Source of the DNA: Nitrososphaeraceae archaeon | GTDB taxonomy: Archaea; Thermoproteota; Nitrososphaeria; Nitrososphaerales; Nitrososphaeraceae | Length of the DNA: 13,464 nucleotides | Direction of reading: 5' to 3' | Assembly (NCBI GenBank): GCA_030038695.1 | Contig: JASHSN010000402.1 | Coordinates: 1 to 13,464, forward strand | In this document: one piece after another, positions 1,536 through 11,950 of the stretch | Numbering within the stretch: position 1 is the stretch's first letter | Layout of the letters: each line of letters opens with the position of its first letter | Translations under genes and position numbers: made by a program | The notes under the pieces: model-generated | Told to the model about the DNA's origin: nothing | Database searches by the model: none | What the model saw: only the letters and a program-made list of their open reading frames with translations

Positions 1536-3002
1536 TTGCCCTATAAAGTAATTGACGGTAAAATTCAACCTTTGTCATTTACAGCCGAAGAAATTATGCA
1601 AAAAATCAAGAATGATGGGATCAAGTTTATTGATTTGCAGTTTACAGGCCTTACCGGGAGATTCCATCATACTACTATGGCATCCAGCATGTTTCACAAA
1701 GAAGACTTCGAGGATGGTCTCCCGAAACTTGATGGTTCTTCAATCAGGGGTTTTACAGAGATACATGAATCTGATCTAATTCTCAGACCCGATCCATCGA
1801 CATATGCCACGATCCCTTGGATCGAAAAGGATTCGACAGCAAGATTAATTTGTGATATCCTAAGCGGAGGCTCTGAGAGAAATTCCTTTCCGCGCGACCC
1901 ACGTGGAATCGCAATCAAGGCGTGCAAATTCGTTAAAGAGAAAGGCTACGAGTCTTCATTTTGGGGGCCTGAAATTGAATTTTTTGTCTTTGATAAACTC
2001 GAGGTAAACACGATGACACCGTATCATTGCCAAAGCTACAAAATAACTTCGAGAGAGGCGCCATGGTCCACTGAGGGCGTAGGATATGTCCTGAGACTAA
2101 AAGAGGGCTATCTTCCAAGTGCACCCGGTGACACTCTGATGGATTATAGAAATGAATGTGTTCATGTGCTCAACAACGATTTTGGGATCATTTGCGATAC
2201 TCATCATCACGAAGTAGCAACTGCTGGCCAATGCGAAATTGATATTCGATATGATACGCTTGTTAATGCAGGTGATTCGGTTCAAAGCTACAAGTATATT
2301 GTTAAAAACCTAGCAAAAAAATACAATATGATCGCGACTATGATGCCCAAACCGATTGCACTTGATAACGGCTCAGGTATGCATGTCAATGTCAGTCTCT
2401 GGGACAAAGAGAATAATCTCTTTTTTGATGAGAGGGACGAATACGCGGAGATGTCAGAGACTGCTCGGTATTTCGGAGGAGGCATTATAGACCATGCATT
2501 TGCATTAGCTGCTATTGTAGCACCGACTACCAATTCATACAGAAGATTGGTGCCCGGTTACGAAGCGCCAGTATATATTGCATGGAGTAGGGGCAACAGA
2601 TCCGCAATAATCAGGATTCCAGCTCATTACAAAGGAAGAAGATTTGCCAACATGAAGAGAATCGAATTTCGCGCGCCGGATCCGTCATGCAATCCTTACT
2701 TTGCATTCTCTGCCATAGTCGCAGCCGGCCTGGACGGAATTTTGAAGAAAAAACCATTGGGTGATCATATCGATGAAGATATCTTCAAGATGACTCCACA
2801 AAAACGGAGAGAACTTGGGGTAAAGCAACTCCCTGCAAGTTTAAGAGAGGCATATGAGGAGCTAGACTGTGATAGAGCTTTCTTGAAACCCATCTTTGGC
2901 GACGACGCGATAGATAACATAATTGAACACGAAGTAAAAGAACACAATGAGGTAGCAGTAAGACCGCATCCTCACGAATTTTCCATGTACGCAGACGTGT
3001 AA
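1536..3002 (+). CDS. glnA: Glutamine synthetase type I, canonical copy
   Basis: It catalyses ATP-dependent formation of glutamine from glutamate and ammonium, the main ammonium-assimilation step, as a cytoplasmic dodecamer. At 488 aa it has normal GSI length. The N-terminal beta-grasp carries LDGSSIRGF (65-73), the Asp that completes the neighbour's active site. Metal ligands are E146 and E148 in GPEIEFF, E226 and E234 in HHEVATAGQCE, H283 in NGSGMH, and E377 in RIEFR. Substrate-binding NSYRRLVPGYEAP (333-345) and the C-terminal RPHPHEF block are intact. At the position of the adenylylated Tyr397 of enterobacterial GS this protein has Phe (DIFKM, F417), so it cannot be regulated that way. The start is TTG because a TAA stop lies in frame at 1530-1532 and MPYKVIDGK fits archaeal GS; the next in-frame ATG (1596) would remove 20 residues. 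The context supports a single-gene transcript. Confidence 0.97.
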   Translation: MPYKVIDGKIQPLSFTAEEIMQKIKNDGIKFIDLQFTGLTGRFHHTTMASSMFHKEDFEDGLPKLDGSSIRGFTEIHESDLILRPDPSTYATIPWIEKDSTARLICDILSGGSERNSFPRDPRGIAIKACKFVKEKGYESSFWGPEIEFFVFDKLEVNTMTPYHCQSYKITSREAPWSTEGVGYVLRLKEGYLPSAPGDTLMDYRNECVHVLNNDFGIICDTHHHEVATAGQCEIDIRYDTLVNAGDSVQSYKYIVKNLAKKYNMIATMMPKPIALDNGSGMHVNVSLWDKENNLFFDERDEYAEMSETARYFGGGIIDHAFALAAIVAPTTNSYRRLVPGYEAPVYIAWSRGNRSAIIRIPAHYKGRRFANMKRIEFRAPDPSCNPYFAFSAIVAAGLDGILKKKPLGDHIDEDIFKMTPQKRRELGVKQLPASLREAYEELDCDRAFLKPIFGDDAIDNIIEHEVKEHNEVAVRPHPHEFSMYADV

Positions 3003-3928: not shown

Positions 3929-3957
3929 TATATATGGTGCGGTCACCGGGATTTGAA

Positions 3958-3979
3958 TTCCCGCTCCATCCTTAAGAGT
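3958..3979 (-). other. tRNA-Gly intron 2 (non-canonical, T arm 53/54)
   Basis: This is a 22-nt intron between G53 and T54. The predicted fold has a central 4-bp helix CCCG (exon 48-51) with CGGG (intron end), 3-nt bulges GG^A and AA^T, and a short CTC/GAG intron stem. The outer helix is weak, so this is the relaxed form of the motif. The cut points are unambiguous because only this excision gives CCGGG-TTCAAAT-CCCGG. Non-canonical tRNA introns are known in several archaeal lineages; splicing here is inferred. Confidence 0.82.
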
Positions 3980-3994
3980 CCCGGGTTACGGGCT

Positions 3995-4022
3995 AACCTC
4001 GTATTCATGTACATGAAATACC
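3995..4022 (-). other. tRNA-Gly intron 1 (position 37/38, canonical)
   Basis: This is a 28-nt intron after A37. It forms a complete bulge-helix-bulge: central 4-bp helix CTTC (exon) with GAGG (intron), 3-nt bulges CA^G and TT^A carrying the predicted cuts, the anticodon stem on one side and an intron hairpin (GTAT...ATAC extended by TCATG/CATGA) on the other. It is expected to be cut by the archaeal tRNA splicing endonuclease. Confidence 0.88.
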
Positions 4023-4125
4023 TGGAAGGCCAGTGTCCTAACCAAACTAGACGATGACCGCACGCATGCAAATAGCAGGACATGTAGTAGATATTAAATC
4101 TTAACGATTTAATTGAGTCATCATA

Positions 4126-5594: not shown

Positions 5595-6857
5595 ATGATT
5601 ACCAGTACACATAAACAGAGCGTAGAAATTTCAATCAGTTTGAGTTTTTGTACATTATTGGTTGTATTAGTCGGTACTGGCTCGACGGCAGCAATTCTGG
5701 CATACTCTTCGCCAGAATATGGCTTGTCTGGCGGTAGTAATACTAATAGTAATAGTAATAGTAATAGTAATAGTAATAGTAATAGTAATAGTAATAGCAC
5801 AGGTAATAATGCTGCCGGCGGCAGTAGTAGTAATGCCGAGAGAGGATTAGAAGATAGCGGCTACAAGGATTCCTCATCCAACAGTCAATCAGCAGAATCA
5901 ACAGCCCAGAATGATGCTACTTCAGATTCATCTGGCTCATCTGGCAGTAGTAGTAATAGTGCTGGCGGCGGCAGCAGTAGTAATGCCGAGAGAGGATTAG
6001 AAGATAGCGGCTACAAGGATTCCTCATCCAACAGTCAATCAGCAGAATCAACAGCCCAGAATGATGCTACTTCAGGTGGCTCGTCCAGCAGTAGTAGTGG
6101 TAGTAGTACTAATAATAGTACCGGCACAGCTTACGAAAAATCAGGAACCCAAGACACCAGTACCAGTAGTGACAGTAGTGTCGGAAGTAGTAGAGGAGGT
6201 ACTGAAAGCAATGACACAAATTCAGGAAAATCCGTCATTCAGCGAAGCATGGAATGTGATACTTCAACACATCAATCTTGTTCAAGTTTAAACACTGGAA
6301 TTGGAAAGATTCCTGGAAATATTTGTACCCATCGACATGGCGAAACGTTTTGTACGTCATATGGTACGGATGGAAGCTCCGCAAATGATAAAAATATACA
6401 AAACAATGAATCCTCATCCAATACTAACCCCTCTTCATCCCTCGGACAGACGAAGCTAGCTGGATTAGGAACAATACGCGAGATTGCGCCTGGTGCACCA
6501 TCTGGTCCACATACGTTGGAGTACATACAAGCATTCAACACTGCAGCAGGTAATCCATACAAGCCTGGAACGAAACAATATCAGAATTATGAGGCTGGAC
6601 TTAGGGCTGCAAAAAAAGTTGGCAGAGATTGCGACAAAATGGATACCTGTGGTGGGCCGGATCTCCTGGGCAATTATGTCAACGGAGCATTGCATCTTAG
6701 TGACAAACAGTATTGCGGTAACGGATTTGGGGTATATAGTAGCAAGTTGTGTAAGTTTCGCGAAGGTTGTATAGCAACCATAATGGGAACTCTAGAATGC
6801 CCATCGTCTGAGTCACCATTAGCAGGGAAGCTTGCTCTTTCATATCAAGGAAAGTAA
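5595..6857 (+). CDS. Secreted/surface Ser- and Asn-rich protein with a Cys-rich C-terminal domain
   Basis: A 420-aa protein probably exported and possibly part of the cell envelope; function unknown. Residues 12-36 form a hydrophobic export signal, possibly cleaved after the ILAYS region. Residues 48-70 are a Ser-Asn dipeptide tract. Residues about 73-160 hold two copies of a 50-aa repeat (core AERGLEDSGYKDSSSNSQ). Residues 160-205 are a Ser/Thr/Gly linker, likely to be glycosylated if the host modifies Ser or Asn. The C-terminal 215 residues are folded-looking, with ten Cys outside the signal region (MECDTS, HQSC, NICTH, TFCTS, DCDKMDTC, QYCGNG, LCKFREGC, LECP), an even number that suggests disulfides. 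Start ATG 5595 follows an AGGTAGGAA element that may act as a ribosome site, with a leader of about 25 nt. No sortase or GPI-like anchor or second membrane helix is seen. Convergent with the downstream gene. Confidence 0.85.
   Translation: MITSTHKQSVEISISLSFCTLLVVLVGTGSTAAILAYSSPEYGLSGGSNTNSNSNSNSNSNSNSNSNSTGNNAAGGSSSNAERGLEDSGYKDSSSNSQSAESTAQNDATSDSSGSSGSSSNSAGGGSSSNAERGLEDSGYKDSSSNSQSAESTAQNDATSGGSSSSSSGSSTNNSTGTAYEKSGTQDTSTSSDSSVGSSRGGTESNDTNSGKSVIQRSMECDTSTHQSCSSLNTGIGKIPGNICTHRHGETFCTSYGTDGSSANDKNIQNNESSSNTNPSSSLGQTKLAGLGTIREIAPGAPSGPHTLEYIQAFNTAAGNPYKPGTKQYQNYEAGLRAAKKVGRDCDKMDTCGGPDLLGNYVNGALHLSDKQYCGNGFGVYSSKLCKFREGCIATIMGTLECPSSESPLAGKLALSYQGK
5748..5795 (+). repeat. Hexanucleotide microsatellite (AGTAAT)x8
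   Basis: Eight perfect AGTAAT units, in frame, encode Ser-Asn repeats; the flanking codons (AGTAATACTAAT before, AGC after) look like decayed units. The unit is a multiple of three, so slippage would change protein length without a frameshift. Confidence 0.95.
5811..6075 (+). repeat. 150-bp internal direct duplication in the surface-protein gene
   Basis: 5811-5925 and 5961-6075 match over 115 bp with only two differences (5815/5965 and 5825/5975), including 100 bp of perfect identity (5826-5925 versus 5976-6075). The period is 150 bp, 50 codons. The identity includes third codon positions, so the duplication is recent or kept uniform by gene conversion. Confidence 0.97.
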
Positions 6858-8501: not shown

Positions 8502-9995
8502 ATGTCATTTGCCAGAAGCAATTCGATACTACAAGGTGAAAAAAACTCTATAGACACGGGTTTTGTCCAGTTGAGATATACCGATGTGCTTGGCAAGTTT
8601 TTAGCAAAATATGTTTTCGGAAATAAAGAAAGCTTTGAGAGCCTTTTTAAAATAGGCGTAGGACTTGATGGATCATCTGTTCGAGGGTTTTCAAGCATCG
8701 ATGAATCTGACATACTACTTCTACCAGACATGTCAACGATAAGGATCTTTCCACCATCATTATTATCGGTAACAGAACTATCGCGATTATCCCATTCCAA
8801 TAAAGAGCTACTTGCAGTTATTGCCGATGTATATCAGGGCTTCAATGAGGGTAGGTTGGTAAGAGATCCGAGATATGTATCACAACTCATGGAAGGACAC
8901 CTAATAGAAAACAATCTAACCTGTCAATTGGGTCCAGAAGTTGAATGCTTTGTATTTGACAATATCATATTTAATCATAAATGCAGTAATGATGGAGGAG
9001 AATACGAACCCGAAATTATATCATCGGAACAATTCGGCACAGACGGTTGTAAGTACCCAATAAAAAGAAAAGGGGGATATGATGCGCCACCATTTCAAGA
9101 TTCCTTACTAGAATTTAGATTTGAGGTTGCGGAGATCTTAAGAAACTATTTTTCTATCGATGTTACGAACTTAAACCATGAGGTAGCGAGTTGCGGTCAA
9201 ATAGAGATTAACTTTACACATAGTACGCTTACGAAGGCGGCCGACAGCGTTCAGATATACAAGGACGTTGTCAGAAATGTCGCAAGGAGATACAATAAAG
9301 TAGCAAATTTTATGCCGAAGCCCCTTTTTGATATAAACAATCCTTTGAACGGAGGAGATAATGGTTCAGGTATGCATACTAGTATTAGCTTGTGGAATAA
9401 TTCATCAGATACGAATGTCTTTTATGATAGCGATGATTACTATGCGGAGATAAGTCAAATAGGAAGGTATTTTATTGGTGGTTTAATGGAACACGCGCAT
9501 TCCTTAGCCGCTATCGTCGCTCCCACGATAAATTCCTATCACCGACTTATTCCTGGTTTCGAAGCACCAGTGTATGTCGCCTGGGGCAAAGGAAACAGAT
9601 CTGCCATCATACGCATCCCTATCAATGAAAGAAATAATTCTCAATCAAAACGCATCGAATTCAGAGCCCCCGATCCGGCCTCTAACCCATATCTGGCATT
9701 TTCAGCTATAGTCGCCGCAGGGCTTGATGGTATCAAGAATGCCATAGATCCTGGTAGCTCTACTGATGAAAATATTTACAAAATGTCTGATTCCAAAAGA
9801 AAGAGTTTGGGAATAAAATCGCTGCCAGGAAGCTTAAGAGAATCACTTGATGCATTGAAGAGTGATTCAGAATACCTGAAGAATCAATTTCCAGACGAGC
9901 TTTTGGACACTTTTGTTATGCTCAAAAATGAGGAAGTTGCAATTTTTCAGGACAAATCAATTGCTCAAGAGCTTATGTTTTACTATGACATCTAG
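8502..9995 (+). CDS. Divergent glutamine synthetase type I paralogue
   Basis: A 497-aa GSI-fold protein with the full set of expected metal and substrate residues: LDGSSVRGF (55-63), E146 and E148 in GPEVE, E227 and E235 in HEVASCGQIE, H292 in NGSGMH, R348 and E354 in NSYHRLIPGFEAP, and E386/R388 in RIEFR. It is therefore likely active as an ATP-dependent ligase. It differs from the upstream copy in a short N-terminus, an acidic segment near 162-175, an insertion of about 7 residues before the metal-binding His (around 276-286, DINNPLNGGD), Tyr (Y426) rather than Phe at the Tyr397-equivalent, and a C-terminus in which the HPxEF signature is replaced by an unrelated sequence. It could be a second glutamine synthetase for other nitrogen conditions, a hetero-oligomer subunit, or a gamma-glutamyl-amine ligase. 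Start ATG fits the TATA spacing. Confidence 0.93.
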   Translation: MSFARSNSILQGEKNSIDTGFVQLRYTDVLGKFLAKYVFGNKESFESLFKIGVGLDGSSVRGFSSIDESDILLLPDMSTIRIFPPSLLSVTELSRLSHSNKELLAVIADVYQGFNEGRLVRDPRYVSQLMEGHLIENNLTCQLGPEVECFVFDNIIFNHKCSNDGGEYEPEIISSEQFGTDGCKYPIKRKGGYDAPPFQDSLLEFRFEVAEILRNYFSIDVTNLNHEVASCGQIEINFTHSTLTKAADSVQIYKDVVRNVARRYNKVANFMPKPLFDINNPLNGGDNGSGMHTSISLWNNSSDTNVFYDSDDYYAEISQIGRYFIGGLMEHAHSLAAIVAPTINSYHRLIPGFEAPVYVAWGKGNRSAIIRIPINERNNSQSKRIEFRAPDPASNPYLAFSAIVAAGLDGIKNAIDPGSSTDENIYKMSDSKRKSLGIKSLPGSLRESLDALKSDSEYLKNQFPDELLDTFVMLKNEEVAIFQDKSIAQELMFYYDI

Positions 9996-11536: not shown

Positions 11537-11878
11537 TCATTTGATTGCTCTTTCCCCTCTATCTAGTGTTGCGATATTGATTGCCTCTTCCACGTTTGAG
11601 ACGGATATTAGGCCATCGCCATGTTCACCAGTTCGAGCATTTTCTGTGATAGTCTTGAGTACTAAATCCAGCTGATCATCTGGAATGATTATCTCAAACT
11701 TAGACCTAGGGATCAGGTCATAGGATACCGGTAATCCCCTCCACTGCAAATGTAGTTCTCTTTGTTTGCTCCAACCCGAAACAGACGTAATAGTCATGCC
11801 GCCAATCCCTATCTCTCTAAGGTGTTCCTTCACGATAGGCAACCGCTCGACCCTCACGATCGCTTCTACTCTTTTCAT
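11537..11878 (-). CDS. PII-family signalling protein with altered nucleotide site
   Basis: A 113-aa protein that aligns without gaps to E. coli GlnB over its full length: beta-1 MKRVEAIV, GIGGMTI (25-31), IIPDD (64-68), TGEHGDG (83-89) and VEEAI. PII trimers sense ATP/ADP and 2-oxoglutarate and bind transporters and nitrogen enzymes such as AmtB or glutamine synthetase. Gln39 and the GDG loop are kept, but Lys58 is Arg, Lys90 is Leu, Arg101 is Asn and Arg103 is Ala, removing the main phosphate-binding side chains. The uridylylated Tyr51 is Val, so modification at that site is impossible. I place the start at ATG 11878 because homology begins there; the frame is open to a TTG at 11908 (10 extra residues). 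A TATA-like CTTTAAAC lies around 11915-11922, giving a leader of about 14 nt. It is divergent from the MEDS gene. Confidence 0.92.
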   Translation of the reverse strand: MKRVEAIVRVERLPIVKEHLREIGIGGMTITSVSGWSKQRELHLQWRGLPVSYDLIPRSKFEIIIPDDQLDLVLKTITENARTGEHGDGLISVSNVEEAINIATLDRGERAIK

Positions 11879-11950
11879 GGTAAGAAAATTGATTGATTCT
11901 TCCTTCAATATTAAGTTTAAAGGATTTCAACATCCCTCAGCAAGTACATT

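Follow-up and report, generated by a model that had tools for sequence, protein, structure and literature searches.

Among archaeal tRNA genes, several with multiple introns have been described, and position 53/54 is included among the known noncanonical intron sites (PMC4090602). T-arm introns are mentioned for archaea in general in PMC12397907, and a total of 107 noncanonical introns in Thaumarchaeota is reported with tRNAscan-SE 2.0, which includes a dedicated intron model trained on Thaumarchaeota (PMC8450103). The splicing endonuclease of the alpha2beta2 type is assigned to Thaumarchaeota and linked to noncanonical introns (PMC3218864 and PMC4090602). According to PMC4090602, tRNA-Pro(UGG) of Pyrobaculum islandicum carries a canonical and a T-arm intron in one gene, like the gene reported here, but differs from it in a third intron at 25/26, in the T-arm site (56/57) and in both isotype and phylum. 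Within the open-licence literature searched, mostly at the level of titles and the beginnings of abstracts, we met no paper on the particular T-arm intron analysed below.

The window, that is, the whole stretch of 13,464 nucleotides analysed here, is contig 617 in a bin of 3.75 Mb (679 contigs, 78.5% complete, 5.13% contamination). It carries a tRNA-Gly(UCC) gene on the minus strand at 3938..4061, 124 nt unspliced and 74 nt mature. A sequence-only reading had located the gene there, its strand not given, and the coordinates as well as both intron boundaries proved exact; the match of the Rfam tRNA model RF00005 also spans exactly 3938-4061. Exon 1 (4061-4023, minus strand, as are all parts of the gene) supplies mature positions 1-37, namely the acceptor 5' strand, the D arm, the anticodon UCC and A37. 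It is followed by intron 1 (4022-3995), 28 nt long at the canonical position 37/38, and by exon 2 (3994-3980; positions 38-53), which contains the anticodon stem 3' strand, the variable loop and the T-stem 5' strand CCGGG. Intron 2 (3979-3958), 22 nt in length, lies at the noncanonical position 53/54, between T-stem and T-loop, and exon 3 (3957-3938; positions 54-73) provides the T loop, the T-stem 3' strand, the acceptor 3' strand and the discriminator A. A TATA-like element, TTTAATA (4092..4098, minus strand), begins 37 nt upstream of where the tRNA starts and is the putative promoter element. With a probability of roughly 0.95, we take this gene to encode a functional, probably essential tRNA-Gly(UCC) of a soil ammonia-oxidising Nitrososphaeraceae archaeon, belonging to the genus that includes Ca. 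Nitrosopolaris, from which both introns would be spliced.

Both junctions had been proposed to form bulge-helix-bulge (BHB)-type motifs, CTTC/GAGG and CCCG/CGGG in DNA letters, and both motifs are indeed present, with the cuts falling where they had been predicted. For intron 1, the CUUC/GAGG helix is flanked by bulges with predicted cuts CA^G and UU^A. For intron 2, the predicted cuts are GG^A and AA^U, and its central 4-bp helix arises where the CGGG near its 3' end (3960..3963, minus strand) pairs with the exon CCCG (3982-3985). Each intron would thus be bordered by a 4-bp central helix between 3-nt bulges, with presumed cleavage two nt into each bulge. The outer helix past the second T-arm bulge looks weak, and the motif of intron 2 would fall short of the full textbook BHB.

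The expectation that standard gene finders would miss or misfold this gene was borne out. ARAGORN called no tRNA in the whole window, Rfam gave no match over the same stretch at the gathering threshold, and RF00005 at a relaxed threshold reached 26.7 bits (cut-off 29) and placed insertions in the anticodon loop and in the T loop. When the unspliced gene was submitted with introns allowed, or after removal of the 37/38 intron alone, ARAGORN gave no call, and removal of the 53/54 intron alone led to a false Trp(cca) with a shifted intron. The spliced 74-mer, from which both introns are taken out, was called as tRNA-Gly(tcc) with a cloverleaf, in agreement with the earlier claim that two segments must go to leave a paired tRNA. 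Since tRNAscan-SE 2.0 has a Thaumarchaeota-trained intron model, a run in archaeal mode may well find the gene.

Rejection by the finders (ARAGORN blank, Rfam below threshold), together with a mismatch in the anticodon stem, could be taken to indicate a decayed tRNA pseudogene with insertions that merely resemble introns. The mismatch in question, U28-C42, remains in the mature anticodon stem. Each of the 50 complete Gly(UCC) genes found via a 3'-end probe alone has it, and its occurrence in an intron-free Gly(UCC) gene of another family (L192, family f3) argues against decay. The probe, 22 bases from the 3' end of the gene with up to 2 mismatches, was run on 61 genomes of the same family and matched 52 of them. 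From 59 regions fetched at these matches, 50 contained a complete Gly(UCC) gene, and 50 out of 50 agree with a strict pattern written for the first two exons, while the introns vary in length and sequence. The other nine comprised three Gly(CCC) genes, three genes truncated at contig ends and three 3' ends standing alone. This retention of the exons, the TATA-like elements found upstream of most of the genes (see below) and the presence of a single Gly(UCC) gene among the 30 of 33 matches read in a nearly complete relative all speak against a pseudogene, which we consider very unlikely.

To this collection were added 53 named records from a scan of genome contigs with a 5'-half pattern, their names being mostly Nitrososphaeraceae, Nitrososphaerales, Nitrososphaera, Nitrosocosmicus and Ca. 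Nitrosopolaris wilkensis, with a few others. The gene in the Ca. Nitrosopolaris wilkensis record (L118) is the same in sequence as that of G029 (L062), a member of the window's genus. The final count, based on 133 loci and a wider gene pattern, gave 56 distinct genes, including 45 with both introns, 10 with the 37/38 intron only and 1 with the 53/54 intron only. Under a stricter count of 113 loci, 53 distinct genes were obtained (42, 10 and 1, respectively). Eleven of these 113 loci fell outside the strict pattern: by eye, L043, L070 and L072 are Gly(CCC); L069, L079 and L093 are truncated at contig ends; L075, L077 and L082 are isolated 3' ends; and L116 and L120 do carry both introns. TTTAATA or TTAATAT precedes 49 of 55 genes (raw count), in each case with a start in the range from -41 to -31.

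In 46 of the 56 distinct genes an intron lies precisely at 53/54 and shares the end motifs, a recurrence far beyond chance. In the 10 genes without it, the sequence CCCGGG|TTCAAAT is exactly the predicted splice product, and where the 37/38 intron is missing (L064/L149), CTTCCA|AGCCCG is exactly the spliced junction. The T-arm introns range from 19 to 33 nt, and all 44 distinct ones start with A and end in CGGGA[AGC]; the CGGG that matches exon CCCG is thus retained in 44/44 despite the variation in length. Likewise, a fully pairing partner of CUUC is found in 49 of 50 distinct 37/38 introns. Within the inner helix of the T-arm motif, pairs 1 to 7 are paired in 44, 44, 40, 39, 41, 34 and 39 of the 44 distinct introns. 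Against 2000 shuffles, which ignore relatedness, pairs 3, 5 and 7 (40, 41 and 39) exceed the shuffle maxima of 37, 38 and 37, pairs 1, 2 and 4 equal the maximum, and pair 6 stays below it. For the 37/38 intron, inner-helix pairs 1 to 4 are paired in 50, 49, 44 and 42 of 50 distinct introns, above the shuffle maxima (relatedness again ignored), and pairs 5 and 6 are not above them.

Minimum-energy folding of the precursors returned the T-arm BHB motif in 0 of 46 cases, forcing it at a cost of 1.0 to 8.2 kcal/mol (median 4.3). The canonical 37/38 motif, folded as a control, appeared in 3 of 55 folds, and in 9 of 55 after removal of the T-arm intron; because this canonical motif also failed, the folding test has little power and is used neither for nor against the motif. 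For the Gly(GCC) genes of other families described below, the T-arm motif lies within the minimum-energy fold in 5 of 9. The CGGG of intron 2 has two possible partners, the exon CCCG, which gives the cleavable motif, or the T-stem 3' strand, which gives a decoy one step off register. For the window precursor, the fold of lowest energy contains this decoy hairpin, as would be expected if only the 37/38 intron were spliced and the T-arm insert were retained, or if the precursor used the decoy T-arm CGGGA-AUUCAAA-UCCCG. On a reading of the sequence, however, the T-stem of the decoy is displaced by one position and an extra G is left before the acceptor strand, no tRNA is called when the 37/38 intron alone is removed, and the insert splits positions 53/54 exactly and is cleanly absent from 10 of 56 genes. 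We therefore give retention of the insert very little chance and favour the splicing of both introns. The precursor may toggle between the decoy T arm and the cleavable motif, in which case processing would have to follow a set order or pass a checkpoint.

Upstream of the tRNA, the window carries a minus-strand gene (4692-4126) without a Pfam match. For 51 distinct tRNA genes, 450 nt or more of upstream sequence could be inspected, and a homologue of this neighbour on the same strand was found at 40 of them, the window's own included. The 40 include 8 of 8 genes that lack the T-arm intron, as well as the single gene without the 37/38 intron, and the 11 genes at which the homologue is absent are all double-intron genes. 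The intron-bearing and intron-free versions are one locus. Elsewhere in the window, two different glutamine synthetases (1536-3002 and 8502-9995, both plus strand) and a P-II regulatory protein (11537-11908, minus strand) make up a nitrogen-assimilation neighbourhood inside 11 kb, and an ORF at 5595-6857 (plus strand) contains a long Ser/Asn/Gly-rich low-complexity stretch with a near-identical internal repeat inside. In genus g6, about 20 bp of the tRNA 3' end are repeated without the rest of the gene (L273 in G022, L274 in G053 and L082 in G050), about 1.6 kb (G022) and 4.9 kb (G053) from the intact gene. Such a repeat near an intact gene would be reminiscent of an attachment site left by an element once integrated there; the listed ORFs, inspected by eye, showed no recognisable integrase.

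The source bin is fragmented into 679 contigs and has 5.13% contamination, which might raise the suspicion of an assembly chimera or a binning artefact. The identical two-intron architecture is, however, carried by independent genomes, including the single-contig genomes G001, G013 and G021 (L048-L050), and by named isolate and MAG records. An artefact was rejected on this ground and is the least probable of the alternatives considered.

A second intact Gly(UCC) gene, which the sequence-only reading had named as a sign of a pseudo-tRNA, was not seen among the listed matches read in the window's genome and in the single-contig relative G013. In G013, which is 99% complete, 150 of 163 first-look candidates were scored, giving 33 matches to the tRNA-Gly model, and the 30 of these read by eye include a single gene each for Gly(GCC) and Gly(CCC) and a single Gly(UCC), which has both introns. 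In the window's genome, 150 of 196 candidates were scored, 39 matches to the tRNA model were listed, and the regions of all 39 were fetched. Besides the window gene, a Gly(GCC) (L006) and a Gly(CCC) (L010) were identified; a scan of the 39 listed matches for a UCC anticodon loop returned no second Gly(UCC), which, for a bin 78.5% complete, is weak evidence. Where ARAGORN gave other Gly labels in this genome, the anticodon was gcc or acc, and these calls seem to be intron-bearing tRNAs that were misread. A search of the same genome for a like intron signature returned the window gene only. Long inserts were also observed in other tRNAs of this genome, L012 (G000:C493), L028 (G000:C189) and L003 (G000:C610), and an Asp-like gene in L012 seems to be interrupted twice, in the D arm and again in the anticodon arm.

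The splicing endonuclease family (PF01974) was detected in 30 of 31 genomes, with two matches over the cut-off in 25 of the 31. From 16 endonuclease loci fetched, 11 had a readable C-terminal stretch, 6 with a His residue (L103 and L201 being the same gene) and 5 without; we take this His to be the catalytic residue. Subunits with and without the His were both read in G003, G012 and G013, and such a combination of catalytic and degenerate subunits in relatives would fit the alpha2beta2 type of endonuclease. The sequence-only reading had taken the two introns to imply an endonuclease with broad specificity, and an enzyme of this type would be consistent with that. In the window's genome, a bin 78.5% complete, only the His-less, degenerate subunit was found, and the missing catalytic subunit is put down to the incompleteness of the bin. 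The ligase RtcB was found in all 6 genomes tested, including that of the window. Based on these components, we can propose a path of maturation. The primary transcript would fold so that each intron lies inside a BHB-type motif; an alpha2beta2 endonuclease would cut two nt into each bulge; the exons would be joined by RtcB, with the release of two introns; and the mature 74-mer would read GGA codons.

As to distribution, the T-arm intron recurs in 11 of 12 sampled genera of Nitrososphaeraceae; g8 gave no probe match, and g12 is mixed. A T-arm intron pattern matched at least 49 of 300 genomes of the class, a lower bound because the pattern requires CGGG and the intron of G069, which ends in CGAG, escaped it. 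No genome among the 300 showed more than one match, and none matched in family f9, which is heavily sampled in the order. In the window's family, 39 matches start with ACU or ACC, and full reading of a part of them showed Gly(UCC) in every case. Ten further matches, in families f4, f10, f12 and f13, are all Gly(GCC), and an eleventh Gly(GCC) case, G069, was found with the tRNA-Gly covariance model. This model was used in place of two strict Gly(UCC) patterns, which matched G062 alone when applied to 30 other genomes. From the matches listed, 40 regions were picked, with families f5, f8, f15 and f16 left out. Fourteen Gly(UCC) genes from 11 other families (L192 and thirteen more), identified by eye, lack the T-arm intron, and several of them carry inserts in the D arm or the anticodon arm. 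In addition, a GUC-anticodon (Asp-like) tRNA in L208 (G062:C94) has an insertion inside the T loop and is a candidate for a T-arm intron at a different position.

The T-arm introns of Gly(GCC) in the other families (L161-L170 and L221) resemble that of the window gene in their position, 53/54, and in a CCCG/CGGG-like central helix, the variants of which include a U-G variant and CUCG/CGAG in L221 (family f10). In L221 the exon CUCG is matched by the intron CGAG. Eleven loci yielded 9 distinct genes for measurement (L165 fell outside the pattern, and L168 has no separate row), and their introns are 20-29 nt long. In contrast to the Gly(UCC) introns, they start with AG (TAG in L221) and have another inner helix, and by eye no likeness in sequence was noted between the two groups beyond the needs of the motif. 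The isoacceptor that is interrupted at this position thus differs from family to family. In the literature searched, no account was met of a 53/54 intron in tRNA-Gly(GCC) of the four other families. The family-specific choice of isoacceptor suggests either transfer between isoacceptors or repeated insertion at the T-arm target, CCCGGG, which already supplies half of the BHB; because the intron sequences share only what the motif needs, both transfer and independent insertion are possible. The wider proposal, that 53/54 is a recurrent site of tRNA-Gly introns in the order, reached by isoacceptor transfer or repeated insertion, with a precursor possibly toggling between decoy and cleavable motif, is tentative, and we hold it to be rather doubtful.

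To read GGA, the family's soil ammonia oxidisers apparently rely on a tRNA that escapes a common gene finder, and annotation of such genomes could wrongly list Gly(UCC) as missing. The recurrence of the intron, together with natural intron-free versions at the same locus, offers a good test case for intron gain and loss, and also for the handling by the endonuclease of a site inside the T arm. If a move between the GCC and UCC isoacceptors is true, it bears on the open question of the mobility of archaeal tRNA introns. Compared with the noncanonical BHB introns described in Crenarchaeota (Thermoproteales) and Thaumarchaeota, the introns analysed here agree in their BHB-type junctions, short length and presence of more than one per tRNA, and they may also have the alpha2beta2 endonuclease in common. 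In contrast to those systems, one intron at a single site in a single isoacceptor recurs here within one family, in 11 of its 12 sampled genera. The gene is a well-conserved case of a type of archaeal tRNA intron already in print.
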